Positions 1-11,127 of a DNA stretch of 11,138 nt are shown piece after piece; position 1 is the first letter of the stretch, and the number at the start of each line of letters is the position of its first letter. The notes beneath the pieces were generated by a model. The model did no database searches and was not told the DNA's origin. It worked only from the letters and a program-made list of their open reading frames with translations. This stretch comes from Nitrososphaerales archaeon TH526 (lineage in GTDB: Archaea > Thermoproteota > Nitrososphaeria > Nitrososphaerales > Nitrososphaeraceae): the NCBI GenBank assembly GCA_014523665.1, contig JAATVR010000358.1, positions 1 through 11,138 on the forward strand, read 5' to 3'. A program made the translations under genes and the position numbers.

Positions 1-391
1 GTTCTGGAATCCTCTTCTTTCATGAAATAGCCATCTTTTACTACAGATTGAGCAACATATGGAATTATCGCTAGTAGAGTACTGCAATTCGAAATGACTA
101 CAACGCACTTGATATTCGTGTTTTAGTGCTTCCATTTCCTTGATTGCATCAATGTGTCTGACAGAATTTTCTGTCAATATACCCTTCCAATTGGGAGTTC
201 CACTTTATCAACCTTGTCGATCAGACCAAAAGCATGCACCAAGAAATATCCAATATCAATTGACAATGCTTGAATCTCGCTGATAAATATGGTCATGGAT
301 AATCCTTCACCGGATGTCCTTTGGCTAGCGCACATCTGTATATACCACGAGAGGCTGAATCAGGGAATTCGATTGCAATTTTAGATTTCAC
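1..391 (-). pseudogene. Frame-hopping remnant of an unidentified gene, cut by the left edge
   Basis: Read on the minus strand, this stretch has four consecutive protein-like segments with strong purine-N-pyrimidine codon structure, each in a different frame from the one before. They are: GTG at 391 to TGA at 293 (32 aa, with KIAIEFPDSASRG); ATG at 296 to TGA at 174 (40 aa, with IDIGYFLVHAFGLIDKVDKV); about 180 to 117 (with VRHIDAIKEMEALKHEY); and 119 to the edge (with CVVVISNCSTLLAIIPYV). The second and fourth share a frame, so the third looks like a compensated double indel. The first two junctions are 4-base overlaps (ATGA, TTGA), so coupled mini-genes are an alternative reading, but the frame switch near 117 has no start codon. 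I favour a decayed gene running left past the edge. Family not recognised. Indel errors in the assembly would look the same. Confidence 0.4.
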
Positions 392-485
392 CTGTTATTA
401 AATAACATTCATTGCAGATTGAAGTGGAGAACAGGAAGTTGATCCTATGAAACTTTACTTTGTTGCAAAGGGGGCATTTCTTCAT
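381..485 (-). CDS. 34-residue zinc-ribbon microprotein (CPLC...CNEC)
   Basis: ATG at 485 opens a 34-aa frame beginning MKKCPLCNKVKFHR and ending CNECYLITGEI. Cysteines at 4, 7, 24 and 27 form C-x2-C-x16-C-x2-C, the spacing of a minimal zinc ribbon; zinc binding and a role in protein or nucleic-acid contact are inference. A TATA-like ATAAAATTATT (minus sense) at 513-523 lies about 33 bases upstream, which suits a nearly leaderless archaeal mRNA. The 3' end overlaps by 11 bases the GTG that opens the frame-hopping remnant to its left and shares a frame with two segments of that remnant. It could therefore be the N-terminal zinc ribbon of one larger gene now broken by indels, not a free-standing gene. 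Confidence 0.45.
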   Translation of the reverse strand: MKKCPLCNKVKFHRINFLFSTSICNECYLITGEI

Positions 486-512
486 TTTTCAAAGATTGTC
501 TAGCGACGTAGT

Positions 513-523
513 AATAATTTTAT
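513..523 (-). promoter_or_regulatory. Putative TATA element for the 34-residue zinc-ribbon ORF
   Basis: ATAAAATTATT in minus sense, centred about 33 bases before the ATG at 485. The spacing fits an archaeal TATA box with a transcript starting within a few bases of the start codon. Confidence 0.35.
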
Positions 524-838
524 CGATATACAAGAATGATTTCATATTCGTCAAATCTCTGGTTCGTATCCGAGAACTGTTATTTCAGCCCCTTTTTCCA
601 ATCTATACGGATTGTAGTAGGTGTATAGCAAGCACTTGACCGCTTGACCACATATTTTTCTTCACAACAGCCAATTTTTCTTGAAAACAGATGCAGGTCA
701 AGTTGACCAGTCTTATATAGATCAAATAACCCATCTGTTGATTGACCACCTAATACTGGAGACGATCTTATCTTGACTGTCTCATAGAGGATTGCTTTTG
801 CTCTCCATGCAACTAGAGCACTATTCTTATTAGGAGAT
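520..838 (-). pseudogene. Frameshifted C-terminal gene remnant abutting the Hel308 start
   Basis: A minus-strand frame from 838 to TAA at 580 encodes about 85 protein-like residues (with SALVAWRAKAILYETVKI and VVKRSSACYTPTTIRI) with clear purine-N-pyrimidine codons. Near 590 the protein-like signal moves to another frame (AEITVLGYEPEI, stop at 551). It then returns to the first frame (FDEYEIILVYR, stop at 520). No ATG, GTG or TTG exists in frame between 838 and the Hel308 coding region, so there is no usable start. The frame is open further into Hel308, but there it is the antisense of helicase codons. I read this as the 3' part of a lost gene whose 5' end was replaced by, or overlapped with, the helicase gene. 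Family not recognised. Part of the region must also serve as the Hel308 5' flank, so the coding signal could be misleading. Confidence 0.3.
711..719 (+). promoter_or_regulatory. Possible TATA element for hel308
   Basis: CTTATATAG is the only good TATA-like element between 580 and 839. Transcription would start near 740, giving a leader of about 100 bases before the GTG at 839. That is long for this window, where other genes look leaderless, so the call is weak. Confidence 0.25.
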
Positions 839-3037
839 GTGACGATAAAGATTAATTCAGATCGTATGAGATTGATTGATGATTCTGGCCGACATATTAA
901 CAGTGGAGGGAGCAGAAACCTAAGTGAAATAATGAAGATAATGGGATATTCTGAATTGTATCCTCCACAAGAACTAGCTTTGTCAAAAGGGGTTGCAGAA
1001 GGCAAGAATTTGTTAATTGTAACTCCGACTGCAAGTGGGAAGACCTTGACAGCAATGTTGGCTGCAATCTCTGTACTTGAAAGAGGTTTAAAAGTGGTAT
1101 ATCTCACCCCGTTACGAGCGCTGGCATCAGAGAAATACCACGACTTTAAGTTATTTGAAAAGCATCCTCTGGTAGGCAAGCAGATCAAGGTTAGGATCGC
1201 AAGTGGGGATTACACCTCACCTGGAAGCAGATTGTCTGATGCCGATATTATCGTTGCAACTAACGAAAAGATGGATTCACTGCTTCGCCGCCGAATTGAT
1301 TGGCTGCAAAAGGTGGGTGTTTTCATAACGGATGAATTTCATTTGCTCTCAGATCCAGAGAGAGGCCCAACTCTTGAGATGTTGCTTACTAAAATTCGTA
1401 ACAGGTATTCGAAAGCTCAAATCTTAGCACTGAGTGCTACCGTTGCCAATTCTAGCGAACTAGCAGAATGGCTTGATTGTGACTTGGTTCTGAGTTCTTG
1501 GAGACCTACAAAATTGGTGGAGGGAATATTCGAAGATGGTAGATCCATTATGAATGACGGCAGTCGGTTTACAGTCAATGTTTCCACCGAAACCTCTGCC
1601 TCAGTCGACGTTGCAATTGATTGTGTTGCGAAAGGTGGCCAATCATTAATTTTTGCGGAAACGAGAAAGCGATGTGTCTCCCTTGCAGCAAGAGCAGCCG
1701 ATACAGTCTATCAGATGCTATCAAGAAAAGAGGCACTAATGGCTGCAGAGGAGTCCTCCAAGCTTTTGAAGAAGGGGGATGATACGGACTTGACTATGAC
1801 GTTAGTAAAGTTAGTTAAAAAGGGGGTTGCCTTTCATCATGCAGGTCTGTCCCATCAATGTAGAGATTTGGTGGAGATAGCTTACACGAAGGGGGTCGTC
1901 AAACTTATTGTGGCCACCCCTACTTTGGCATCAGGCGTGAACCTGCCTGCTAGAAGGGTCATTCTTTCAAGCGTAATGAGGTATGATCTCGAACAAGGCG
2001 GATATGTTCCTATTCGAATTATGGAGTATAAGCAATTATGTGGCCGTGCTGGGCGACCCCAATATGACGAAAAAGGCGAAGGAATAATCATTGCGAACGA
2101 CAATATTTCAGGAGAAGATCTATATGATCATTATATCAATGGAACTCCCGAACCAATCAGATCTAACTTAATGAACGGGAAGTCCCTGAGGTCGCACGTG
2201 CTAAGCACGGTAGCAGAGGTCCCAGGCATCAGAAGGTCAGAAATTCATTCCTTATTTGCAAATACTCTATGTGCGTATTATCATGATAAGTCAATGATAT
2301 TGGCCAAGGTTGATGAAATGTTATACTATCTTGAAGAACAAGAACTAATTAAGTCTAAGAATGATAGATACATAGCCACTTCATTTGGCAAAACCATTTC
2401 TCTATTATATATGGATCCATTTACCGGAGTTCAATTTAGAAACTTCATTGGAAAGGTAATGAGAAATGGTAACGATTCTCAAGATAACCATATACTTGCC
2501 TATCTTCAAGTAGTTACGTCTAGTGAGGATTTCTTTCCAAAGCTTCAATTAAGGAAGAAAGATCTAGAATTCGTATTAGATCTTTTGAGTAAGAACGAGA
2601 GTCGTCTGGTAATCCCACTGGACGAACATGCATGCACTAGAAGCCTTTTGGTATTGCACAACTGGATAGAAGAAGCAAGTGTAAGACAAATATCTTTAGA
2701 ATTAGGAGTAGAGCCAGGAGATTTATACAGGATCGCAGAGGCTGGTGAGCGACTAGTTTCATGCTTATACGAAATCGCTAAACTTTGTGGAAGGGACGAT
2801 CTTTTGTTAGAAATTGATATGCTTAGAAGACGCGTTAAATACGGAGCTAAGTCCGAGTTGCTGTCAATGTTAAGATTAACGGGTATTGGTAGAGTTAAAG
2901 CAAGATCTCTATTTGATGCAGGTGTCACATCCACGAAGGATCTTATAGAGATGGACGAACAGTACATAGCAAGAATCCCAAAGATAGGCACTACAATGGC
3001 AAGGAAAATAAAGAAGGAAACTATCAAATTTATGTAG
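839..3037 (+). CDS. hel308: Hel308-family ATP-dependent DNA helicase
   Basis: Superfamily 2, Ski2-like 3'-5' DNA helicase that acts at stalled or collapsed replication forks. Visible motifs in order: YPPQ (41-44), Walker A PTASGKT (63-69), motif Ia TPLRALASEK (90-99), DEFH box (165-168), SAT (199-201), motif IV IFAETR (271-276), FHHAGLS (332-338), motif V ATPTLASGVNLPARR (359-373) and GRAGRP (402-407). A winged helix and the ratchet helical bundle follow (about 440-665, with NWIEEASVRQISLELGV from 608). A C-terminal helix-hairpin-helix (TGIGRVKARSLFDAGV from 681) completes the fold. At 732 aa it is full length. The start is GTG at 839; the ATG two bases earlier runs at once into TGA. GGAG at 833-836 is too close to be a normal ribosome site. 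The first 27 or so residues precede the usual Hel308 N-terminus, so ATG at 866 or 932 is possible. Confidence 0.96.
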   Translation: MTIKINSDRMRLIDDSGRHINSGGSRNLSEIMKIMGYSELYPPQELALSKGVAEGKNLLIVTPTASGKTLTAMLAAISVLERGLKVVYLTPLRALASEKYHDFKLFEKHPLVGKQIKVRIASGDYTSPGSRLSDADIIVATNEKMDSLLRRRIDWLQKVGVFITDEFHLLSDPERGPTLEMLLTKIRNRYSKAQILALSATVANSSELAEWLDCDLVLSSWRPTKLVEGIFEDGRSIMNDGSRFTVNVSTETSASVDVAIDCVAKGGQSLIFAETRKRCVSLAARAADTVYQMLSRKEALMAAEESSKLLKKGDDTDLTMTLVKLVKKGVAFHHAGLSHQCRDLVEIAYTKGVVKLIVATPTLASGVNLPARRVILSSVMRYDLEQGGYVPIRIMEYKQLCGRAGRPQYDEKGEGIIIANDNISGEDLYDHYINGTPEPIRSNLMNGKSLRSHVLSTVAEVPGIRRSEIHSLFANTLCAYYHDKSMILAKVDEMLYYLEEQELIKSKNDRYIATSFGKTISLLYMDPFTGVQFRNFIGKVMRNGNDSQDNHILAYLQVVTSSEDFFPKLQLRKKDLEFVLDLLSKNESRLVIPLDEHACTRSLLVLHNWIEEASVRQISLELGVEPGDLYRIAEAGERLVSCLYEIAKLCGRDDLLLEIDMLRRRVKYGAKSELLSMLRLTGIGRVKARSLFDAGVTSTKDLIEMDEQYIARIPKIGTTMARKIKKETIKFM

Positions 3038-3256
3038 GTCGACCATGACATACTACTGCCATACTAAACCTGAATAGTACCGCTCCAGAAATTGGGAATT
3101 AAATTGAATATAATTATCAATCTGACTGAATTTCATGATATATGTCACCTGATTTCGCCCAATCTATTCTTATGCATGCAAATAGAAGGATTATGGAACT
3201 GAGCTCGCCCCCGTAGATAATGCTGTCCGTATTCCCACATTCAATCTCTAATTAAA

Positions 3257-3264
3257 TTTATAAT
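3257..3264 (+). promoter_or_regulatory. TATA box of the ALG7-like transferase unit
   Basis: TTTATAAT, inside an AT-rich run from 3250 to 3266, is centred about 32 bases before the TTG start at 3293. The archaeal TATA-to-start spacing (about 25 bases) puts the transcript start near 3286, so the mRNA is close to leaderless. This supports TTG as the start codon. Confidence 0.6.
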
Positions 3265-3292
3265 AGGCACAACATATCTTGCAGAACCGATC

Positions 3293-4306
3293 TTGATCAC
3301 CACTGATTCATTATCTGACCCCTTCTACCTTATTACAGCGATAATTGTATCGCTGATTTCCTTCCTAGTTATTTTCCTCCTTATGCCTATGTATATCAGA
3401 TCATTAAAATCAAAGGGAAAAGTGGTAAAAGACTTTCATAAACCTGGAAAACCAGACATTCCCAGACCTGCAGGCCCAATCATGTTATTAGGTATAGCAT
3501 CATCTGAAATAATCCTGTATATTTTGACACTCAGCGATGCAGTGCTTGCCATACTGCTGACCACTGTGATAGGTTTTATCGTAGGGATGGTAGACGATAG
3601 AAAAATAATGCCAGGTTGGTTTAAACCTTTGGCACTTGTGGCAGCTGCCATTCCAATAATCTTGTTGGGTGCACATGGTAGCTATCTTAACTTGATATTT
3701 GGTAGCGTGTTTATTCCGATTCTTTACATTCCTTTAATACTCGTTATAATTCCGGTCGTAGGGAATACAATTAATTCAATTGATGTGCTGAATGGCGTAG
3801 CGAGTAGTTCGGTGATTATTGCTTTAATCCCTATCTTAGCAAGTGTTTTGTTATTCGGCAATGTTTATGTGTTTTTGGCCGGATTGCCCTTACTAGCAGG
3901 AACCCTAGCTTTTTACAAGTACCACAGGTACCCAAGTGGGATATTTCCTGGAGACTCTGGCACGTTATTGATGGGGACTATGCTCGGAGCAATTGCCATT
4001 GCAGGTAAATCCGAGATCATTGCTGTGATAGCGCTATTGCCAGCCGTCATGAATTCGTTTCTTTTTCTTTCAAGTATGAAAAAAATAGTAGAGCACAGAG
4101 AAGTGAAAGCCCGTCCCACAACTCTAACCGATGACTTCAAATTGATGGCATCAAAGGATAAAAGAGCCCCAGTAACACTTCTAAGATTGATCCTATCAGA
4201 CGGCCCGCTGACCGAAGAAGAGAATATTAAGCAAATCACAAGACTCGCGTTATTTTGTTCAGCCCTAGCGTTCATATCCATCTACATTCAGTCCTTATTC
4301 GTATAG
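3293..4306 (+). CDS. ALG7-like UDP-GlcNAc:dolichyl-phosphate GlcNAc-1-P transferase (glycosyltransferase family 4)
   Basis: Polytopic membrane enzyme of the MraY/WecA/ALG7 superfamily. In archaea such enzymes move a sugar-1-phosphate from a UDP-sugar to dolichyl phosphate, the first step in building N-glycans. The sequence has a first membrane helix at about 12-34, the cytoplasmic DFHKPGKPDIPRPAGP (47-62), the catalytic Asp pair in GMVDDR (98-103) and the NTINSIDVLNG nucleotide-binding loop (158-168). FPGDSGT follows at 218-224, and the last cytoplasmic loop has HREVKARPTT (268-277). About ten hydrophobic helices are visible over 337 aa. TTG at 3293 is chosen because the next ATG (codon 31) would remove the first helix and a TATA box is well placed for it. 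The next gene starts 15 bases downstream, so the two probably form one transcript. The exact sugar substrate cannot be read from sequence. Confidence 0.88.
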   Translation: MITTDSLSDPFYLITAIIVSLISFLVIFLLMPMYIRSLKSKGKVVKDFHKPGKPDIPRPAGPIMLLGIASSEIILYILTLSDAVLAILLTTVIGFIVGMVDDRKIMPGWFKPLALVAAAIPIILLGAHGSYLNLIFGSVFIPILYIPLILVIIPVVGNTINSIDVLNGVASSSVIIALIPILASVLLFGNVYVFLAGLPLLAGTLAFYKYHRYPSGIFPGDSGTLLMGTMLGAIAIAGKSEIIAVIALLPAVMNSFLFLSSMKKIVEHREVKARPTTLTDDFKLMASKDKRAPVTLLRLILSDGPLTEEENIKQITRLALFCSALAFISIYIQSLFV

Positions 4307-4321
4307 AAGGAAAGCTTAAGA

Positions 4322-4552
4322 TTGACAATATTGGGTTTAATGGGATTTGTTGTAGTAATGTGGGCTATAGTCCTATCGGCATGTGGATTCTTGATAGCAT
4401 TTGTTGCGCCGCTTGATAGCTTGCTTGGTATCCATAATAGAATTATAACCTCTTTAATTCAAGCCTTGATAGCAGTTCTCTTGGTTGTCGCCCTTGTTAT
4501 GGTGTTAGATCGTATAAAAAAGTTGTATATCATGAGAAAACTCAAGATATGA
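4322..4552 (+). CDS. Small two-helix membrane protein co-transcribed with the ALG7-like enzyme
   Basis: This 76-aa protein starts at TTG (4322), 15 bases after the transferase stop. A purine-rich GAAGGAAAG at 4306-4314 is a plausible ribosome site at the right distance; the alternative ATG at 4340 lacks one. Two hydrophobic helices (about 7-29 and 42-64) are joined by a short polar loop (LDSLLGIHNR). The basic tail RIKKLYIMRKLK predicts N- and C-termini in the cytoplasm. No known domain is recognised. Tight coupling to the transferase suggests an accessory or stabilising subunit, or a partner in lipid-linked sugar assembly, but this is inference from position only. A T5 tract at 4573-4577 may end the transcript. 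Confidence 0.7.
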   Translation: MTILGLMGFVVVMWAIVLSACGFLIAFVAPLDSLLGIHNRIITSLIQALIAVLLVVALVMVLDRIKKLYIMRKLKI

Positions 4553-4717
4553 GTATACCAAAACCCATACAGTTTTTGGCCACATAGAAACTTTCAGTAC
4601 GTGTCATTAGCAGATCGAAAAATAGTGAAACATATGTCCAATTTCTCGGTATGAAATTACTGGATGAATAGTACAGCTATTAGCACGAAATGAGCAAGAA
4701 AAAATAACTAATAAAAT

Positions 4718-4843
4718 ATGCAACACAAGTATGATATCGTATCTATCAACTCCAGGGGGATAACTATGACCTTTGATTACATACCATGTGTAGAGATCTG
4801 TAAACAGATGTGTGACCCTCTTGCTGGGTACAACCGCTATTGA
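4718..4843 (+). CDS. Possible 41-residue Cys-rich protein (C-x3-C-x3-C)
   Basis: ATG at 4718 opens a 41-aa frame starting MQHKYDIVSINSRG, with CVEICKQMC at 24-32 and ending DPLAGYNRY. Three cysteines at 24, 28 and 32 in C-x3-C-x3-C would line one face of a helix and could bind a metal or cluster. Codons follow the purine-N-pyrimidine pattern of the real genes. It sits alone between the membrane protein gene and a convergent zinc-ribbon gene. A T5 tract at 4918-4922 lies about 75 bases past the stop. The A-rich stretch at 4698-4706 is a weak TATA candidate. It competes with an 85-codon minus-strand ORF (4607-4864) over the same bases. Function unknown. Confidence 0.4.
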   Translation: MQHKYDIVSINSRGITMTFDYIPCVEICKQMCDPLAGYNRY

Positions 4844-4942
4844 TAGGACGAGGTTTGGAAACACAAGATCTTAACTAGCAAATGTCCAACTGAACAATAG
4901 ACTTTGACACACTTCAATTTTTGGTTACGACCATTTCCTACT

Positions 4943-5338
4943 TCACACCTGCCTCGCACCACATGCTTTACAGAATTTGGAATTTAAGTTTAAATTAGCA
5001 CCACAATTAATGCAATGTTTTCCCTCTTCAGCCTGTCTATCCTCGAACTGAGTTTTTTCTCCTCTACTTGATATGCCTCTGCCATACATCTCGGTAACAG
5101 CTCCAGAGGGTCTAAAAGTTTCATCAATATCCGGTTCGGTAATCTGACTTGATGGACCCGACTTTTTCTCTTGGAGAAAGAGAGTCAACCTAGGAACGGT
5201 TTCATGACTCTCCGGTGAGGTAACCTGTTCCCCTAGCCAGAGTGCAAATTTCTTTAGAGTCATCTCGGGGGTGGAAAATGTTAACGAGTGAGTCGACATA
5301 TATTCCTCGGTAGCCGTTCGAGCATTGAATAGTTTCAT
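4943..5338 (-). CDS. Zinc-ribbon protein with C-terminal CxxCG-x10-CxxCG
   Basis: This 131-aa protein has an unrecognised N-terminal part: residues 15-60 are predicted helical (TLKKFALWLGEQ, RLTLFLQEKK). A polar linker of about 60-105 follows, then a C-terminal zinc ribbon, CINCGANLNL...KFCKACG, with zinc ligands at Cys109, 112, 123 and 126. The ribbon closely resembles that of the protein at 8154-8576, but the N-terminal parts do not match. Such ribbons in small archaeal proteins usually mediate protein or nucleic-acid contacts. ATG at 5338 is supported by a TATA-like TAATTAAAA about 30 bases upstream, giving a leaderless mRNA; ATG at codon 14 is a less likely start. It is transcribed divergently from 5557-6045. 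Function unknown. Confidence 0.8.
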   Translation of the reverse strand: MKLFNARTATEEYMSTHSLTFSTPEMTLKKFALWLGEQVTSPESHETVPRLTLFLQEKKSGPSSQITEPDIDETFRPSGAVTEMYGRGISSRGEKTQFEDRQAEEGKHCINCGANLNLNSKFCKACGARQV

Positions 5339-5363
5339 TACTATGAACTTTCACGAGTAGTGC

Positions 5364-5372
5364 TTTTAATTA
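5364..5372 (-). promoter_or_regulatory. TATA box of the 131-residue zinc-ribbon gene
   Basis: TAATTAAAA in minus sense, centred 30 bases before the ATG at 5338. This is the leaderless spacing seen for other genes in the window. Confidence 0.5.
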
Positions 5373-5378
5373 TTGCGT

Positions 5379-5389
5379 CCAGCAGCTGG
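5379..5389. repeat. Odd-centred palindrome CCAGC-A-GCTGG
   Basis: A perfect 5-bp inverted repeat around one A. It lies just upstream of the minus-strand TATA element (5364-5372), a position from which a bound regulator could affect the zinc-ribbon gene. Function is inference; a short palindrome can also arise by chance. Confidence 0.35.
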
Positions 5390-5454
5390 CTGGATTAGCC
5401 GATTAAGATTATTGGTATCAAGTCCCTATTGCTTACAATCCAAACGTGGGCGAG

Positions 5455-5467
5455 GATTAGACTAATC
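5455..5467. repeat. Odd-centred palindrome GATTAG-A-CTAATC
   Basis: A perfect 6-bp inverted repeat around one A, about 40 bases upstream of the TATA element of the 5557 gene. GATTAG also occurs at 5393-5398. It is a candidate operator for the divergent gene pair. Confidence 0.4.
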
Positions 5468-5506
5468 AGACTGACAATCATTTCCCGTCTAGGATCTCAA
5501 CTTAGG

Positions 5507-5516
5507 TATATTAATA
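5507..5516 (+). promoter_or_regulatory. TATA element upstream of the 162-residue ORF
   Basis: TATATTAATA is centred about 45 bases before the ATG at 5557. That predicts a short leader of roughly 20 bases. The ATG at 5535 lies in another frame and closes quickly. Confidence 0.5.
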
Positions 5517-5556
5517 AGACATCATAGACTTTCCATGTATTCAAGAGCTGATCAAA

Positions 5557-6045
5557 ATGAAATGGACCAAAAATGAAAGGTTTCCAAACGATAAAGTTGG
5601 AATAATAAAGGATGAGATTTCCGACAAGGTGAAGGGAGTAGGGGCACGTCTTGAAGGATTCGTCTCAGATGAGTCCGGAGTCGCAAAGAGCGAAGATTTA
5701 AGACAGAATGGTAAAGTCGATACCACTGAGAGTCAGCACTTACCTAAAAAGGTAGTGACGAGTACTGATAAAGCAGATCACGGTATGATGAAAGGGGAAT
5801 TAACTACTCTTGACAAGGACATTGTTTCAACCCCCAACTCTATTGGCGAAAATATCGTAAGCCAAGCCAAGGCGAACACGAGTACTTCTGAATATACTGC
5901 TTTAGAGATAGGAACCCTTAAAATAGAGAAGAATTCTTACTATAGTCACTTTTTCTCTTTCACTCCTGTATTAGTAACGAATCGTGGATGCATTCAGGTT
6001 AACGGTAAGAACTTTAACTATATCCAAATAATCCAACGGAATTGA
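5557..6045 (+). CDS. Hydrophilic protein of unknown function
   Basis: This 162-aa protein has clear coding bias. Residues 1-105 are very polar and rich in Lys, Asp, Glu, Ser and Thr (for example KDEISDKVKGVGARLEGFVS), with no membrane helix or signal peptide and probably little stable fold beyond short helices. Residues 110-160 change to strand-forming, hydrophobic and aromatic sequence (SHFFSFTPVLVTNRGC, VNGKNFNYIQII). The segment LVTNRG...VNGKNFNYI faintly recalls the strand pair in bacterial PH-like domains (a tyrosine/arginine-rich 'TNRR' strand followed by a second strand). If so, the domain is cut short at the C-terminus. This is a guess from pattern only. The gene is divergent from the zinc-ribbon gene and is the last apparently intact gene before the degraded region. 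Confidence 0.6.
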   Translation: MKWTKNERFPNDKVGIIKDEISDKVKGVGARLEGFVSDESGVAKSEDLRQNGKVDTTESQHLPKKVVTSTDKADHGMMKGELTTLDKDIVSTPNSIGENIVSQAKANTSTSEYTALEIGTLKIEKNSYYSHFFSFTPVLVTNRGCIQVNGKNFNYIQIIQRN

Positions 6046-6073
6046 TATATTCTATTTGTACTTGGTGGGACTG

Positions 6074-6316
6074 TCAATGTTTGATTGGCTCGCTTGTAAG
6101 CAGCGATGAACCACTGCCTTGAAGAGACGATGTTACGCACCAAAAAATGTTTAATTCATTTATAACAGAAACGAACACGTTCGAGTCTCTTTCAGAGAGA
6201 TATTTGCCATGTTTCATCAAGCAATTGGCGTGCACTTCACTCAATGATGTCTTCGCTCTACTCCGTGCAGTGCTACCCATTGAATCGCTTTCATAGACCA
6301 TAGCGATTCTAACCAT
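6074..6316 (-). CDS. Hypothetical 80-residue protein in the degraded region
   Basis: ATG at 6316 follows the stop of the broken gene upstream by 9 bases and lies in the same frame as its last segment, separated only by one TAG and three codons. The protein starts MVRIAMVYESDSMGSTARS and has coding-like codons. It has no recognised domain, membrane helix or signal peptide, and no ribosome site is visible before the ATG. It may be a small co-transcribed gene, or the far end of the same ancestral protein cut off by a nonsense mutation. Confidence 0.4.
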   Translation of the reverse strand: MVRIAMVYESDSMGSTARSRAKTSLSEVHANCLMKHGKYLSERDSNVFVSVINELNIFWCVTSSLQGSGSSLLTSEPIKH

Positions 6317-6516
6317 GCGTAAAAACTATTCTACCATGTCATTAGGATTCTCCGGGGTTTTCCTGTGTATGTCAAAGAGATTTGGCATTATGACCCTTTC
6401 TACATATTTATTTTCATTGTCATAAGTTTTGCCTGTTGTAGACGGTGGTGCATACTCTTCTACCCACTCTTTCTCTTGTTCAGTTAACATAGATGCATCT
6501 ACTATTTCCTGAATAT

Positions 6517-6524
6517 GCGCGCGC
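6517..6524. repeat. GCGCGCGC tract at a frameshift point
   Basis: An alternating GC tract within AT-rich sequence, at the place where the coding frame of the broken gene changes. Loss of one GC pair by slippage would produce the observed shift. Confidence 0.45.
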
Positions 6525-6820
6525 CTTTTCTTCTTGTACTCTTTTAAACCATAATTCATAATCCAAATCTTCTAATTTCATCTGTTTTGATAGGTCGTAA
6601 CAGAAGACATAGTCGCCCTCTATTCCTAAATCCGGAAACGCACTTCTCTGAAGGCCTAAATCGGTTTGAATATTCTGGATGGTAATTGCCCATCGTAACC
6701 TGTCCTGAACTGTTTCGCCGTTCTTTGGATTCCTTGATATGCGGTATCCCAACCACGCACGGAACAAACAGTTCCATCCTTGGCCTCTTGTATAACCTGA
6801 AGGACATGGTATCCAACTAT

Positions 6821-6840
6821 CTGCACCATACTGCACCGTA
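6821..6840. repeat. 10-bp tandem duplication that breaks the gene
   Basis: CTGCACCATA at 6821-6830 is followed directly by CTGCACCGTA at 6831-6840, 9 of 10 bases identical. Removing one copy restores a continuous frame across the site (QPSQYGA joined to DSWIPCPSG), so the duplication is the likely inactivating event. Confidence 0.75.
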
Positions 6841-6901
6841 CTGACTAGGCTGTACATTTTTGAATTTCTTCTCAAATTGATCCGATGTCTTTTTTCTGTG
6901 G

Positions 6902-6916
6902 TTTTGGCGCGCAAAA
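6902..6916. repeat. GCGCGC palindrome with AT arms, copy 1
   Basis: TTTTG-GCGCG-CAAAA: 5-bp inverted arms around a GC core. It lies within the 5' part of the broken gene. Compare 7063-7081 and 7231-7246. Confidence 0.5.
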
Positions 6917-7062
6917 TGACGCCGGTTAGATCTGCCCCATTTATTCTCAGATCTGACGAGTCTGACTTTGGATTGTGCCTTGGCACTTGACATTTTATTT
7001 ATATAACCTATAGTGAGTGATTCTGCGATATCTACTTGAAACACCAGGTCTGACTAGTGTCT

Positions 7063-7081
7063 AATTTGGCGCGCACAAATT
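7063..7081. repeat. GCGCGC palindrome with AT arms, copy 2
   Basis: AATTTG-GCGCGCA-CAAATT: perfect 6-bp arms around a GCGCGC core. It lies about 70 bases upstream of the ATG of the broken gene (6993, minus), in the position of a promoter or operator. Confidence 0.55.
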
Positions 7082-7150
7082 CTCCTGACTCAATCTATAC
7101 AATGAATAGAATACATCCATACATACAACATAGATATCAAAAGTATTAAC

Positions 7151-7158
7151 AAAAAAAA
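7151..7158 (-). terminator. T8 tract on the minus strand
   Basis: Eight A on the plus strand give eight T in minus-sense RNA. Oligo-T on the non-template strand is enough to end transcription in many archaea. It would stop transcripts leaving the integrase remnant before the next minus-strand gene. Confidence 0.4.
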
Positions 7159-7230
7159 TCTAGGATGAATTTACACCTCGCAAAATATACGGTACGCCTT
7201 TTGACCCAATCGAGGACCTTCATTACAAAT

Positions 7231-7246
7231 ATTTGCGCGCGAAAAT
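7231..7246. repeat. GCGCGC palindrome with AT arms, copy 3
   Basis: ATTT-GCGCGCGA-AAAT: 4-bp arms around a GCGCGC core, the third such site in about 345 bases. Confidence 0.45.
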
Positions 7247-7304
7247 AAAATGATAAGCATCCGGAGAAAATACTCAAAAACATGGACTGATCGTGCTGGA
7301 TTGA

Positions 7305-7322
7305 TGAATACAATGAATACAA
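7305..7322. repeat. Tandem 9-bp repeat TGAATACAA x2
   Basis: Two perfect adjacent copies, followed by AACTAACTAAC. Part of the unit recurs at 7099-7108. Low-complexity sequence next to the integrase remnant. Confidence 0.5.
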
Positions 7323-7325
7323 CAA

Positions 7326-7839
7326 CTAACTAACACCGTGGAAGAATTCCAATGTATTGTTCCATTTTCTAACCGTTCGTACCAATCCTCCTAATTTACT
7401 TGCATTCGTGTTACCTATGGCGCCTGCTCTATCTAGGTTTCTCTTGGCGATTGCTGCTTCTCCGCCCAGAATTCTTTCTATTGTGTTATTAGTCACTCTC
7501 TTGTCAACAGTACATTCATGTCGCTCGAAGTTCCATCTGAGAGCCCAAGAACGTCGCTTACGCTCAGTTAAGTGCACGAATATCTTCCTTGTTTGCATTT
7601 CTAAATGATTTGCGCAAGAAATTTTTCATGGAAATCAACGCTGTTATGCAATGAGTAATCCAGAGTATCGCGTTTGCATTGTCTGTCATATATTCTACAA
7701 ATTTCAAGAGATCCGTCCTGTCTGACCGATCCAGGCCTCTCTTAACGCTTTCAATCCAGTCCGATAATTTCTTTTGTCGGTTGTAGATGTCTCTCGTATG
7801 ATTCCTTGAATCTGAATTGGAAGGTACGGTGTTGGATCT
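7326..7839 (-). pseudogene. Tyrosine recombinase (integrase) N-terminal remnant beside tRNA-Val
   Basis: A minus-strand frame open from 7839 to TGA at 7564 encodes 91 residues with no good early start codon. It includes KKLSDWIESVKRGLDRSDRT, then DLLKFVEYM, then ILWITHCITALISMKNFL, and finally SFRNANKEDIRAL. This fits the SAM-like core-binding domain of archaeal tyrosine recombinases: a helix with W-I-x-S-[VL]-K-x-G-L, a 'LLKF' helix, an 'AL-I-S' helix, and the closing 'A-x-[RK]-E-D-I' motif. At about 7570 the protein-like frame changes to one that starts ERKRRSWALRWNFER and ends at TAG 7326. The catalytic Arg...His-x-x-Arg...Tyr domain is not seen, so the gene is dead. It lies just past the 3' end of tRNA-Val in the same direction, the usual place for an integrase of an element inserted there. 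The last 60 residues (ILGGEAAIAKRNLDRAG) are not recognised and may be other element sequence. Confidence 0.6.
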
Positions 7840-7908
7840 CTAATAATACCTTTGGTTTTCGACCTGTACCAGTATTTCTTATATCAGGGATTCTAACCAA
7901 GGCTACAA

Positions 7909-7983
7909 TGGAGGGGATGGGATTCGAACCCATGACCACCTGCGTGTAAGGCAGGTATCCTAACCAGTCTAGACAACCCCTCC
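7909..7983 (-). tRNA. tRNA-Val (anticodon UAC)
   Basis: The minus strand folds as a full cloverleaf. The 7-bp acceptor stem is perfect (GGAGGGG with CCCCTCC). The D arm is GTCT/GGAT with a 10-base loop containing GG. The anticodon stem is CCTGC/GCAGG with loop CTTACAC; anticodon TAC is at 7946-7948 on the plus strand as GTA. The variable loop has 5 bases, and the T arm is ATGGG-TTCGAAT-CCCAT. The discriminator is A and no CCA is encoded, as is usual in archaea. There is no intron. It decodes valine GUA and probably GUG codons. Position 9 is U, where A or G is more common. A TATA-like element lies about 39 bases upstream. The 3' end is the likely attachment site of the lost element. Confidence 0.96.
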
Positions 7984-8017
7984 CCTATTGATCCGGATGC
8001 ACTTCCAATCCGTTATT

Positions 8018-8028
8018 CTATATTAATG
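8018..8028 (-). promoter_or_regulatory. TATA element of the tRNA-Val gene
   Basis: CATTAATATAG in minus sense, centred about 39 bases before the tRNA 5' end at 7983. That allows a primary transcript with a 5' leader of about 10 bases for RNase P to remove. Confidence 0.45.
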
Positions 8029-8033
8029 TGTTT

Positions 8034-8112
8034 TATCAAGGTATGAAACCTTGGTATATCGGACTTATGAAATGACCCGGCATTTCGACCGTCATCCTGA
8101 AAGGGTGATGAC
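8034..8112. repeat. Two inverted repeats between tRNA-Val and the 8154 gene
   Basis: The first is CAAGGT-ATGAA-ACCTTG (8037-8053), with weaker pairing extending outward to 8034 and 8056. The second is GTCATC (8091-8096) with GATGAC (8107-8112), with an inner CC/GG pair. Both lie between divergent promoters. They could be operators or RNA hairpins; nothing else in this 170-base gap is recognisable. Confidence 0.35.
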
Positions 8113-8123
8113 TGCATCAATAG

Positions 8124-8133
8124 GATATATTAG
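8124..8133 (+). promoter_or_regulatory. TATA box of the 140-residue zinc-ribbon gene
   Basis: GATATATTAG is centred 25 bases before the ATG at 8154, which predicts a leaderless transcript and supports that start. Confidence 0.6.
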
Positions 8134-8153
8134 TCCTAGAAAATAGGGGTATT

Positions 8154-8576
8154 ATGATGTCGGAAGGTTCTTCTAAGGGCGATCTAGCCGAACTAGGAGA
8201 GCAGCTGAAGCAGGTATTAGAGGACGTGCAGGACAAGTATGAAACATTCATCGATGATGCTCAGCTTTACAAGAAAGGAAAGATTGATGATGTTGATTTT
8301 TTTTACAAGTTAAGCGAATATCTACTAGATCTCACCAAAGTAAACTTCCTAGAAGCACGGTTTGTCCTTGAATTAAAGGGCATCATGGAAGCTAAAGGCC
8401 GCAAGGGGCAAGCAGAGTCACATGAGTTGAGCGTTTCAAGCAAAGTCCCTATCCCGAGTTTTTCTAGCGGCGACAGACCTGGAAGCCAGCTCAAACGAAG
8501 CTGCAAAGGTTGCGGTGCAGAGATTGGCCCTAAGGCCAAATTTTGCAGGGCATGTGGAAAATCGCAAGGAGAATGA
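8154..8576 (+). CDS. Helical protein with C-terminal zinc ribbon (CxxCG-x10-CxxCG)
   Basis: This 140-aa protein has residues 8-82 forming a mostly helical, acidic segment (LAELGEQLKQVLEDVQDKYE, then FFYKLSEYLLDL and ARFVLELKGIMEAKG), probably a helical bundle or coiled coil. A flexible Ser/Pro-rich linker (about 88-113) leads to the zinc ribbon CKGCGAEIG...KFCRACG, with ligands Cys117, 120, 131 and 134. The ribbon matches that of the 4943-5338 protein, while the rest differs. No catalytic motif is visible; a scaffolding or partner-binding role is inference. The first of two adjacent ATG codons is taken because the TATA box lies 25 bases upstream. The gene converges on 8681-8974, with a strong hairpin between them. 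Confidence 0.82.
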   Translation: MMSEGSSKGDLAELGEQLKQVLEDVQDKYETFIDDAQLYKKGKIDDVDFFYKLSEYLLDLTKVNFLEARFVLELKGIMEAKGRKGQAESHELSVSSKVPIPSFSSGDRPGSQLKRSCKGCGAEIGPKAKFCRACGKSQGE

Positions 8577-8662
8577 GAGCCTATCTCCTAATTCTAACAA
8601 CGGAAAGGCCATCCCGCTTTCGTTACGATACCTTTCTATTGGTTTCTTAAGCGGTGTAGTTG

Positions 8663-8687
8663 GGATTAGATTTTTTGAATCTAATCC
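8663..8687. terminator. Perfect 10-bp hairpin between convergent genes
   Basis: GGATTAGATT (8663-8672) and AATCTAATCC (8678-8687) pair perfectly around a TTTTG loop. The right arm includes the TAG stop of the minus-strand gene (8681-8683). The plus-strand gene ends 86 bases before it. Its symmetry would let it act on both converging transcripts, as terminator or 3'-end stabiliser. Confidence 0.6.
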
Positions 8688-8974
8688 TTCTTCCTACGGG
8701 CGCCAAAGTTCATCTCTACACCCCTTCGTTCGGTAATATCAAGGGTAAATGATTCGTTATCAAGAATTGGGAAACTCGAAACGAGTGATTCCTCGCATAA
8801 AATACATCCGTTTTCAATTACATCCAACCTCGATTTGTCAATAAACGTTGCAGCCCAATGACAATTGTCACATAGGACAAATATGGCTTCTTTTGCCCTT
8901 CGATTCGTTTCATTGTTTGTTGAAGCTAGAACATTTGACGTAGAAGGTGTGGTGCTTTCAGTTGTACCATTCAT
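8681..8974 (-). CDS. Small CxxC...CxxC metal-binding protein
   Basis: This 97-aa protein has a polar, Ser/Thr/Asn-rich N-terminus (1-28). A compact domain follows with CDNCHW at 35-40 and CILC at 57-60: C-x2-C-x18-C-x2-C, the layout of a treble-clef or zinc-ribbon site, with His39 adjacent. The rest is strand-like (SFTLDITERRGVEMNF) and ends in a basic RRKKD tail. There is no membrane segment. A DNA- or protein-binding role is inference; no family is named with confidence. ATG at 8974 has TATA-like sequence about 41 bases upstream (9011-9020), which predicts a short leader. The stop codon lies inside the terminator hairpin. Confidence 0.75.
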   Translation of the reverse strand: MNGTTESTTPSTSNVLASTNNETNRRAKEAIFVLCDNCHWAATFIDKSRLDVIENGCILCEESLVSSFPILDNESFTLDITERRGVEMNFGARRKKD

Positions 8975-9010
8975 GCGAATCCAAATTCATGCATTCTAAC
9001 ACAGGTGAAC

Positions 9011-9030
9011 AATATAAATTCTATTATAAA
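9011..9030 (-). promoter_or_regulatory. Adjacent TATA-like elements upstream of the 97-residue gene
   Basis: In minus sense TTTATAATAG (9021-9030) is followed by AATTTATATT (9011-9020). The nearer one predicts a start near 8990 and a leader of about 15 bases before the ATG at 8974. Confidence 0.45.
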
Positions 9031-9165
9031 GGGATCAGCAAAAATCTGTTCGAAGTCAAGACGGAATAATCCTCCTCCCCCGTAGAGCAGATCGTGTTCG
9101 TATAATCCTAGATTAAGTCTTTTTTTTGCAGAGAAACCAAGACGTGAAACGGCAAATAACCAACT

Positions 9166-11127
9166 CTATGATAGATTCTGTTCCAATTTACTCTCAAGGA
9201 TGGAACTTACCTTTTTTCCATCTACTCTGCCTCTAAGTAGTGACATACTTCGGCCCATCAATGTTCCCAATGAATCTCTACCTTTTTCTTTAATTAGGAC
9301 CATGTTATCGGTGATAATCCTGTCTATAATTTCATACAATTCACTCTCGCTTACTTGCTCAAGGCCTAGAATTTGAATGGCCTTTTTTACATCATCAAGA
9401 TCCTTCGTTAGCATGGTTTCAAAGATTACTGGAATCGATTCCTTCGCTATGTCCCCTGCATCAAGTAGTTGAAATGCTTTTTTTATTGTCTGATCAGAGA
9501 GTCTATCTGTATTCAAGCCCTTTCTCCTAAGACTAGTGAAGTCTTCGGTTATTTTTGAAGCAACGAAAGTTGGCTGTACCTTTGTACATTTGACTATGTC
9601 ATCAAAGAGTTTCAGGCGCTCAGAGTCAAAAATTTCGAGGGCTAGTTTTCGGTTAAGTTGATATCTTTGCATTATATCCTTTATGTAACTGTCGAATGGT
9701 TTGGGCACAAAGCCTTTCAATGATTCCAAAATCAAATCATCTATTTTTATGGGAAGGACATCAGTTTCAGGATACATCCGGCTGGACCCAGGTCTTGGTC
9801 TCATGAAAATCGTTTTTCCATCCAGCGCCGCTGCTCTTGTTTCAGGAACAACACCTTGTGGTGCTTGCTTCATCCTCTGAAGAATTGCATCAACGGCGAA
9901 TTGAACCCTATCACTATCTCCGCCAATTAGAATAAACGCGTCACGGCCGTTCACTAGATTCAATCTTTCCTTGATCGAAGCAACTTCGAACTCTGTTATT
10001 CCATAGTTGGGCAGTTCATCAGAATGAAATATTCCGCCTAGTCCATAGAATCTTACTATTTCAGCTAGTTGTCTGCCAAGCCTCACCCCTACATAGGGCT
10101 CGAATCCTAAAATTCCATCGAATCCCTCTGCTTTTATCGCCTTAAATTGTGTACCTTCTCTCTCCAAAATCCGAATTACTGCCTTAGAGGAAGAGCGTCT
10201 CAAAATATCAGTTGCGTCTACTACGATAAACTCTTGAATTTCCTCTTTATTGTGTTCCATGGTGTAAGAGAGACGTCTTTGAGTTAGCTCAGCTGCGATT
10301 CGTATCAAGCCAAGCTGTCTGGTTGTTTCAAATTCTATAACTTTGATGAGCTGATCTAGCTGTTGTATACCTTTAATTTCTACAACTGCGCCTCCGTTGA
10401 CCGAGACATTGATATCTTGCCTTATGGTCCCTATGCCTCTTTCTACCCTTTTACTAGCTCTAAGCAGCCTTCCTAATGTTACTGCAACTTGTAATACTTC
10501 TTGAGCAGTCCCTCTCATCGGTTCCAGAGCTACCTCGACCAACGGAGTACCCAGTCTGTCAAGGGAGTATTCTCTAGTGATATTGTCGTCAGATAGGAGT
10601 CGAGCTGCATCCTCTTCCAGGCAGACGCTTTGGACTCCCAGCTTCTTATTTCCTTCTATCTCCAAATATCCTCCTGTGGCAATTAACATAGTCCGTTGAA
10701 ATCCTGTCGTATTAGATCCATCGATTACAATTTTTCTCATAACGTGAATCTCATCAACTATATTAGAATGGAGTGCCATCGCAAGTATAAGGGCTGTTTC
10801 GAGAGATTCTCTGTCTACGGAATGGGGTGGCTCTTCATCCGCCTCCACTAAACAACTCGTGGAGGGATGACTGTGATATCTTATAGATTTCATTTTTGTA
10901 GCCTCGAAGAGGGCTGCAGGATCGTACCCACCTAGCTCACTATGAGCTGGCCTTAGTCTACGCATAAACGCCAGAGTTGTATGTTCGGTGCCTTTGTTGC
11001 TACATTCACAAAAGAGCTTACTCTGAGAAGCCAATTGTTGGTGGATCTCCAAGCCTACCAGTACATTAGCTTCTGGTTTTTTTTGATCCACTTCCAGAGG
11101 AGAATGCTTTGAACCAGTCTTAGGCAC
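9166..11127 (-). CDS. gatE: Glutamyl-tRNA(Gln) amidotransferase subunit E
   Basis: GatE is the tRNA-binding and kinase/amidating subunit of the archaeal GatDE complex. The complex converts Glu-tRNA(Gln) to Gln-tRNA(Gln) with ATP and with ammonia from the GatD glutaminase. The protein has the GatB/E cradle with VGLEIHQQL (24-32), KLFCEC (37-42), EADEEPPHSVD (95-105), KIVIDGSNTTGFQRT (132-146) and RQDINVSV (236-243). An AspRS-like insertion at about 300-420, specific to GatE, has GFDGILGFEP (335-344) and ELPNYGITEFEV (371-382). The cradle resumes at ETRAAALDGKT (429-439) and MYPETDVLP (451-459). Next come the helical linker and the YqeY-like tail (to 653), which contacts tRNA. Length is normal for GatE. 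The GTG at 11127 is the first start inside the window, but the frame stays open to the edge. An NTG codon straddling 11139 (then ATA GCT AAA) is probably the true start. Confidence 0.96.
   Translation of the reverse strand: MPKTGSKHSPLEVDQKKPEANVLVGLEIHQQLASQSKLFCECSNKGTEHTTLAFMRRLRPAHSELGGYDPAALFEATKMKSIRYHSHPSTSCLVEADEEPPHSVDRESLETALILAMALHSNIVDEIHVMRKIVIDGSNTTGFQRTMLIATGGYLEIEGNKKLGVQSVCLEEDAARLLSDDNITREYSLDRLGTPLVEVALEPMRGTAQEVLQVAVTLGRLLRASKRVERGIGTIRQDINVSVNGGAVVEIKGIQQLDQLIKVIEFETTRQLGLIRIAAELTQRRLSYTMEHNKEEIQEFIVVDATDILRRSSSKAVIRILEREGTQFKAIKAEGFDGILGFEPYVGVRLGRQLAEIVRFYGLGGIFHSDELPNYGITEFEVASIKERLNLVNGRDAFILIGGDSDRVQFAVDAILQRMKQAPQGVVPETRAAALDGKTIFMRPRPGSSRMYPETDVLPIKIDDLILESLKGFVPKPFDSYIKDIMQRYQLNRKLALEIFDSERLKLFDDIVKCTKVQPTFVASKITEDFTSLRRKGLNTDRLSDQTIKKAFQLLDAGDIAKESIPVIFETMLTKDLDDVKKAIQILGLEQVSESELYEIIDRIITDNMVLIKEKGRDSLGTLMGRSMSLLRGRVDGKKVSSILESKLEQNLS

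Follow-up and report, generated by a model that had tools for sequence, protein, structure and literature searches.

The stretch of DNA analysed here, called the window, is 11 138 nt long and makes up an entire contig (C211) of a 4.9 Mb archaeal genome in 833 contigs. An intact tRNA-Val(UAC) gene was found on the minus strand at 7909-7983 by both ARAGORN and Rfam (RF00005, 64.5 bits), as a preliminary description of the locus had stated. The host neighbours in the window include a Hel308-like helicase (839-3037), an MraY-like transferase (3293-4306) and GatE (9166-11127); together with the relatives of the window they suggest that the genome belongs to Nitrososphaeraceae. The features discussed below are as follows.

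5557-6045, plus strand: host gene at the far-end flank, outside the putative element; full-length match in genomes G003 and G002
6297-6316, no strand: far boundary of the putative element stretch; synteny with G003 ends here, and a T-arm-like sequence lies at 6303-6314 (minus strand)
6326-7044, minus strand: disrupted copy of a Nitrososphaeraceae multicopy gene, in three frames (7044-6817, 6986-6480 and 6559-6326)
7152-7191, minus strand: short conserved motif ahead of the multicopy gene, also at loci L076, L077, L078, L079 and L080, with a longer alignment at L081
7192-7569, minus strand: further DNA inside the putative element stretch; 7329-7574, searched as protein in 61 genomes, has no match outside its own genome
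7570-7794, minus strand: remnant of the 5′ part of an integrase gene, equivalent to G051 integrase residues 42-116, without start codon and without catalytic part
7795-7908, minus strand: leader between the tRNA and the integrase, aligning with G003, G002, G001, G004:C277 and G001:C319
7887-7898, minus strand: T-arm-like motif GGTTAGAATCCC, 32 bp downstream of the T-arm, from the sequence by pattern search
7909-7983, minus strand: tRNA-Val(UAC), putative integration target; ARAGORN and RF00005, with the identical situation in G003 and G001
7921-7930, minus strand: T-arm sequence of the tRNA, where the presumed att segment begins; part of a pattern match at 7891-7930, and the start of the att copy in G003
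8154-8576, plus strand: host zinc-ribbon gene at the tRNA-side flank, outside the putative element

Synteny and the far end of the stretch

Comparison with the corresponding locus of G003 (L031), a genome of the same genus, gave three aligned blocks: window 1-6296 with 1345-7630 (81% identity), 7575-9051 with 9657-11151 (79%) and 9073-11116 with 11548-13596 (85%). Neither G003 nor G002 has a counterpart of 6297-7574 at this position; synteny as ordinary chromosome, which would have spoken against the preliminary description, was not observed. Since the far boundary falls at about 6297-6316, inside the window, the element stretch extends over about 6297-7908, or about 1.6 kb. The genes at 5557-6045 and 4943-5338 have full-length matches in both G003 and G002 and are host genes. 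The broken genes to the left of the tRNA that had been assigned to the element reduce to 6326-7044, those left of 6296 being intact genes of the host.

Two flanking att copies were found in the G003 counterpart and not in the window. At G003:C77 a copy of the tRNA 3′ end identical at 22 of 22 bases lies at the far end, 2.35 kb from the tRNA. In the window, the final 22 bases of the tRNA were not found again in a search of 6000-7900 that allowed substitutions only; the best candidate has 8 mismatches. The earlier conclusion that no second copy is present was thereby borne out. The accompanying proposal that the far att site lay outside the window or had been lost was right in that no copy is recognisable, but the far end itself lies within the window. 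A repeat pairing 6302-6324 with 7886-7908 (78%) was considered as att and rejected, as its left member aligns with outer, host-side sequence in G003. The best 20 of 24 families of direct repeats in the window are mostly short two-copy pairs, and base composition shows no shift that marks the element stretch or a boundary of it. Beyond the far att copy in G003, in host-side sequence (L031 7640-7681), another T-arm-like motif follows at 33 bp; the window has it at 6303-6314. This outer motif is perhaps the trace of an older insertion.

The tRNA-Val regions of further genomes, taken as stretches of 5.7-20 kb, were also compared. No match to the integrase piece at E ≤ 0.01 was found around tRNA-Val in six of these (G005, G016, G021, G009, G008 and G006), which belong to other genera or species groups. 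Because they do not have the flanking gene order of the window, they do not represent clean unoccupied sites. The seventh, G014, carries a related, broken integrase piece at its tRNA-Val. Within the genus no unoccupied tRNA-Val site was seen. In the window the tRNA separates the two zinc-ribbon genes at 4943-5338 and 8154-8576, but in G009 and G006 (L040 and L042) they are neighbours on the same flank, so the region has been rearranged. We also observed that the T-loop reads TTCGAAT in all four tRNA-Val genes that have an integrase or leader behind them, and TTCAAAT in the tRNA-Val of ten other genomes; TTCGAAT occurs in two more, one of which is truncated by a contig end. The G in the T-loop may have come with the element, yet the far att copy of G003 has G too.

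Integrase remnant and other contents of the stretch

The peptides quoted in the preliminary description as the signature of a tyrosine recombinase all lie in one minus-strand frame, which is open from about 7836 to 7564. As described, this frame follows directly behind the tRNA in the direction of the tRNA, is out of register with the frame reading out of the tRNA and stops before the catalytic domain, so that R..HxxR..Y is absent. By correspondence with the G051 integrase, the remnant covers the N-terminal region and the beginning of the SAM-like domain; the start codon present in relatives is missing. The recombinase signature could be upheld through a homologue and not by profiles: 7570-7782 is 66% identical over 71 residues to the integrase of G003 (E = 2.6e-25), while the window piece searched alone matched only BEN in Pfam (0.089) and one unnamed family in PHROGs (0.053). 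The proposed profile search of the minus-strand piece thus returned no integrase, the result that had been named as refuting the reading, and only the G003 homologue overcomes it. None of the 23 PF00589 matches in the genome itself lies on the window contig. The G003 protein (L031:9064-9864, minus strand) matches PHROG 1 ‘integrase’ at 1.3e-9, archaeal XerA (NF040815) at 9.1e-14 and Phage_integrase at 7.8e-6, the last with 26.2 bits and just under the Pfam cut-off of 27.1. Relatives in G051, G014 and G025 exceed the Phage_integrase cut-off, and each also contains a SAM-like domain and a zinc ribbon. R..HxxR..Y can be read from the alignment in G051, G014, G052 and G025. We identify 7570-7794 as the remnant of a tyrosine integrase by way of the G003 homologue only, on sequence comparison.

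Pfam and PHROGs give no direct integrase match, as would be expected if the frame were open by chance and the stretch were ordinary intergenic DNA. We regard this reading as extremely improbable in view of the match to the G003 integrase and of the codon positions at which the two remnants differ. Among 71 codons, the differences number 12, 8 and 32 at first, second and third positions, and this excess at third positions indicates a coding history.

The preliminary description had placed 7326-7563 within the scar as well. This part is not recognisable as integrase: the open reading frame at 7326-7598 has no Pfam match and one weak match to an unnamed PHROG (E = 0.067), and the protein from 7329-7574 matched only itself among 61 genomes. 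No conjugation genes were recognised among the open reading frames of the remaining ~1.6 kb. In the G003 element, pieces of L031:8447-9082 (minus strand) match DUF2321 and a DpnII-MboI restriction nuclease domain in different frames.

The broken gene at 6326-7044 has copies elsewhere in the genus, namely at C337 and C223 of the same genome and at G002 C249, C77 and C267, G003 C339, G004 C99 and C253 and G001 C290. An intact copy of 203 amino acids (L079:6225-6836, minus strand) has no NCBIfam match, and all its Pfam matches are below cut-off. Weak Pfam matches of pieces of 6328-7191 (Peptidase_M24_C 0.0023, Phage_int_SAM_3 0.027 and DUF2141 0.0037) do not reach the curated cut-offs and were disregarded. 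The possibility that 6328-7191 is itself a mobile unit, dispersed in these genomes, was considered and rejected. Nine other loci gave no convincing integrase match, the single match having E = 0.32, and a tRNA was found nearby at only one of them (L079); 6326-7044 is therefore treated as one copy in a gene family that has a conserved motif upstream.

Whether this gene was cargo of the element or a copy of a host gene family that came to the site separately is evenly balanced in our judgement. Separate arrival is favoured by the wide occurrence of the gene, whose core has relatives in 47 of 61 genomes, by the nine other loci, where no integrase match is better than E = 0.3, and by its absence from this site in G003 and G002. 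It is harder to reconcile with the position of the gene, which sits within the element boundaries and ends beside the far one, and with G003:C339, in which the upstream motif starts about 340 bp after a tRNA-Ser.

Taken as a whole, 6297-7908 very probably represents the remains of a mobile element inserted at tRNA-Val(UAC) by a tyrosine integrase. The G003 homology together with the full-length relatives (R..HxxR..Y, SAM-like domain and zinc ribbon), the synteny on both sides, the 22/22 att copy of G003, the position of relatives directly behind other tRNA genes, the differing integrase defects of the window, G003 and G002 and the signs of repeated insertion (see below) argue for this reading. 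At G003:C77 the flanking genes and the tRNA are as in the window, and a longer integrase lies at the equal place and in the equal direction, a comparison that sustains the original suggestion of a decayed integrated element. Counting against it are 6326-7044 and 7192-7569, both absent here in G003 and G002, which cannot be shown to have arrived with the element. Also on that side are the lack of an integrase profile match for the window piece alone, the missing recognisable far att copy in the window and the unchanged base composition. The homology, the position of the remnant, the synteny boundaries and the absence of a far att copy are direct observations; we infer the crossover, how large the element originally was and of what kind, and the order of its losses. 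A tyrosine integrase would have inserted the element into the 3′ part of the tRNA gene. The element would have brought a replacement 3′ end, through which the tRNA stayed whole, and the insertion would have left the integrase gene immediately behind the tRNA, in the tRNA's own orientation. Subsequent decay would have deleted the att copy at the far end, the catalytic portion of the integrase gene and most of the remaining genes, leaving an unusable 5′ piece of the integrase gene, about 0.4 kb of further DNA and the broken copy of the multicopy gene.

Insertions at tRNA-Val within the genus

The integrase remnants of the window, G003 and G002 were compared with host genes by their third-position differences, using eight host genes for the window and G003 and four each for the window and G002 and for G003 and G002 (all those complete on the G002 contig). 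Between the window and G003 the remnants differ at 32 of 71 third positions, compared with 636 of 2328 in host genes (p = 0.0018). Between the window and G002 the values are 23/70 and 203/706 (p = 0.49), and between G003 and G002 they are 34/70 and 35/706 (p = 3.7e-21). The remnants of G003 and G002 are thus far older than the split of these sister hosts, so the element in G003 is not that of G002 and at least two insertions are required. The window and G002 may share one ancestral insertion, as judged from these sequences.

A single ancestral insertion, inherited by the window, G002 and G003 and decaying separately in each with no second entry, would account for several observations. The three pieces form one clade (97/98) in a tree of 14 short pieces, they have a small gap in the leader in common, and the third positions of the window and G002 differ as much as those of their host genes. 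Nevertheless, we consider it very improbable, since the comparison of G003 with G002 contradicts it for G003 and that of the window with G003 also shows an excess over the host genes. In the tree, the order within the clade is not resolved and 8 of 11 forks are open; the related piece at the tRNA-Val of G014 is placed elsewhere, outside the genus clade. The shared leader gap had been considered as proof of one inherited broken insertion and was dropped, as the codon-position test contradicts this for G003. The defects of the integrase differ among the window, G003 and G002.

These data fit either a subsequent entry in G003 or differential sorting of an old tandem pair among the hosts. If different copies of such a pair were kept in G003 and G002, no later entry in G003 would be needed. 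The T-arm-like motif 33 bp past the far att copy of G003 could then be a former leader, and junctions between an element end and a leader, as found in tandems or circles, exist at four other places (see below). We think this origin rather unlikely; the att copy of G003 is exact over 22 bases and its integrase frame mostly open, which fits a younger insertion. By either route, the sequences make it appear that the tRNA-Val site was entered by related elements more than once, and the G014 piece outside the genus clade is a further sign of such recurrence.

A leader and integrase start of identical type were also observed at G004:C277:7048-7254 (L035), behind a different tRNA, found by Rfam, which by our reading is tRNA-Leu. 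At G001:C319:1-170 (L033) the leader and start lie at a contig end.

The scar is ordinary in kind, as decayed elements at tRNA genes are to be expected in these genomes. Its value is that close relatives show one tRNA gene taking in related elements at least twice. The att layout that the relatives partly have in common, described below, makes the choice of the integrase among tRNA genes testable.

Att layout in integrase relatives and comparison with known systems

Of 300 genomes of the order, 8 contain strong relatives of the integrase (E ≤ 1e-60), at ten loci. In relatives the integrase lies directly behind genes for tRNA Val(CAC), Thr, Ala and Glu (ARAGORN), and from genes found by Rfam alone we read tRNA-Leu as a further target. 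At seven of the ten loci (G051, G042:C364, G042:C44, G052:C97, G052:C8, G025 and G092) the integrase frame is open back into the T-arm of the tRNA; at the other three it is not open into the T-arm (G003), there is no upstream T-arm (G014:C18:60k) or the case is unsettled (G096). Five of the ten loci have a T-arm-like copy that follows the T-arm at exactly 32 bp. The pattern did not find one in G025, G092, G014:60k, G096 and G042:C44, and the layout is thus confined to part of the family.

A pattern ‘T-arm, 22 bases, T-arm-like’, written from the family loci themselves, occurred 14 times, in 12 of the 70 genomes of the family, and never in the reversed control. The matches include window 7891-7930, G051:C265, G042:C364, G052:C97, G052:C8, G018:C131, G003:C77 and G004:C277. 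Ten are at tRNA genes (seven by ARAGORN, three by Rfam) and four are not. By tblastn with the integrase set, 11 of the 14 places gave a match, one consisting of 20 leader residues only and another reaching only E = 0.001; three gave none. At the four places without tRNA, a common element end (TGAMCCCNNTTANYANNAA) directly precedes the T-arm copy. A second pattern for this end, written from these four places, which count too, and allowing one mismatch, matched 23 times in 11 of 70 genomes with no match in the control (L120-L142; for example G013:C11, G222:C274 and G196:C160); it had no match in the genus of the window. Four of the 22 distinct places run into the leader and 18 into other sequence. 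The former are probably junctions of circles or tandems and the latter far att sites. By eye, many of the 18 look like tRNA 3′ ends. ARAGORN found no tRNA at any of the 23 loci.

Att pairs were recovered in G003 (22/22), G018 (21/22, 12 kb apart), G025 (19/22, 65.5 kb) and G052:C97 (18/22, 4.2 kb). None was found in the fetched parts of G042:C364, G051:C265 and G052:C8 or in the window, and G042:C44 was left out. We tentatively propose, and hold to be possible although somewhat doubtful, that the remnant belongs to an integrase lineage of ammonia-oxidising archaea with an att site built on the tRNA T-arm (near-universal GGTTCRAATC), a second T-arm-like copy brought by the element at a fixed 32 bp, a characteristic element end and an integrase frame running through att. 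If this is true, by reading the most conserved part of tRNAs one lineage could enter many tRNA genes and revisit one. A targeted search of titles and abstracts returned nothing on a T-arm/32-bp att layout; we do not claim that it is unpublished.

As summarised by Krupovic et al. (2019, PMC6563490), 39 of 68 integrated elements of Thaumarchaeota are at tRNA genes, all but one on the 3′ side. The elements described there resemble the present one in having a tyrosine integrase, short direct repeats and a target in the 3′ part of a tRNA gene; in contrast, the window holds only a remnant and its far att copy is lost. ICE-1 of Ca. Nitrosocaldus cavascurensis is given in PMC5797428 as 65.5 kb long and located at a tRNA. 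The att copies of G025, whose full-length integrase is 45% identical to that of G003, are likewise 65.5 kb apart. In contrast to ICE-1, the window has no recognised conjugation genes left; G025 has no T-arm-like copy by pattern.

Among named profiles, archaeal XerA and XerC/XerD (NF040815, TIGR02224 and TIGR02225) give the best matches to the G003 and G051 proteins. Although NF040815 matches the two proteins at 9.1e-14 and 4.5e-20, respectively, both are far under the 220-bit cut-off of that model. The family further differs from XerA and XerC/XerD in its extra N-terminal region, its C-terminal zinc ribbon and its att sites at tRNA genes. Archaeal integrases have been divided into SSV-type (suicidal) and pNOB8-type classes, according to the outline in PMC8371274. 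The relatives have HxxR, in contrast to the R..YxxR..Y of the pNOB8 type and the R..KxxR..Y of the SSV type, and their core-binding and catalytic parts lie together behind the tRNA, while the SSV-type gene is split on integration. They resemble the SSV type in their tRNA targets. A slight further similarity is that in several relatives the integrase frame extends across the T-arm portion of the tRNA, so that att reaches the 5′ end of the integrase gene.
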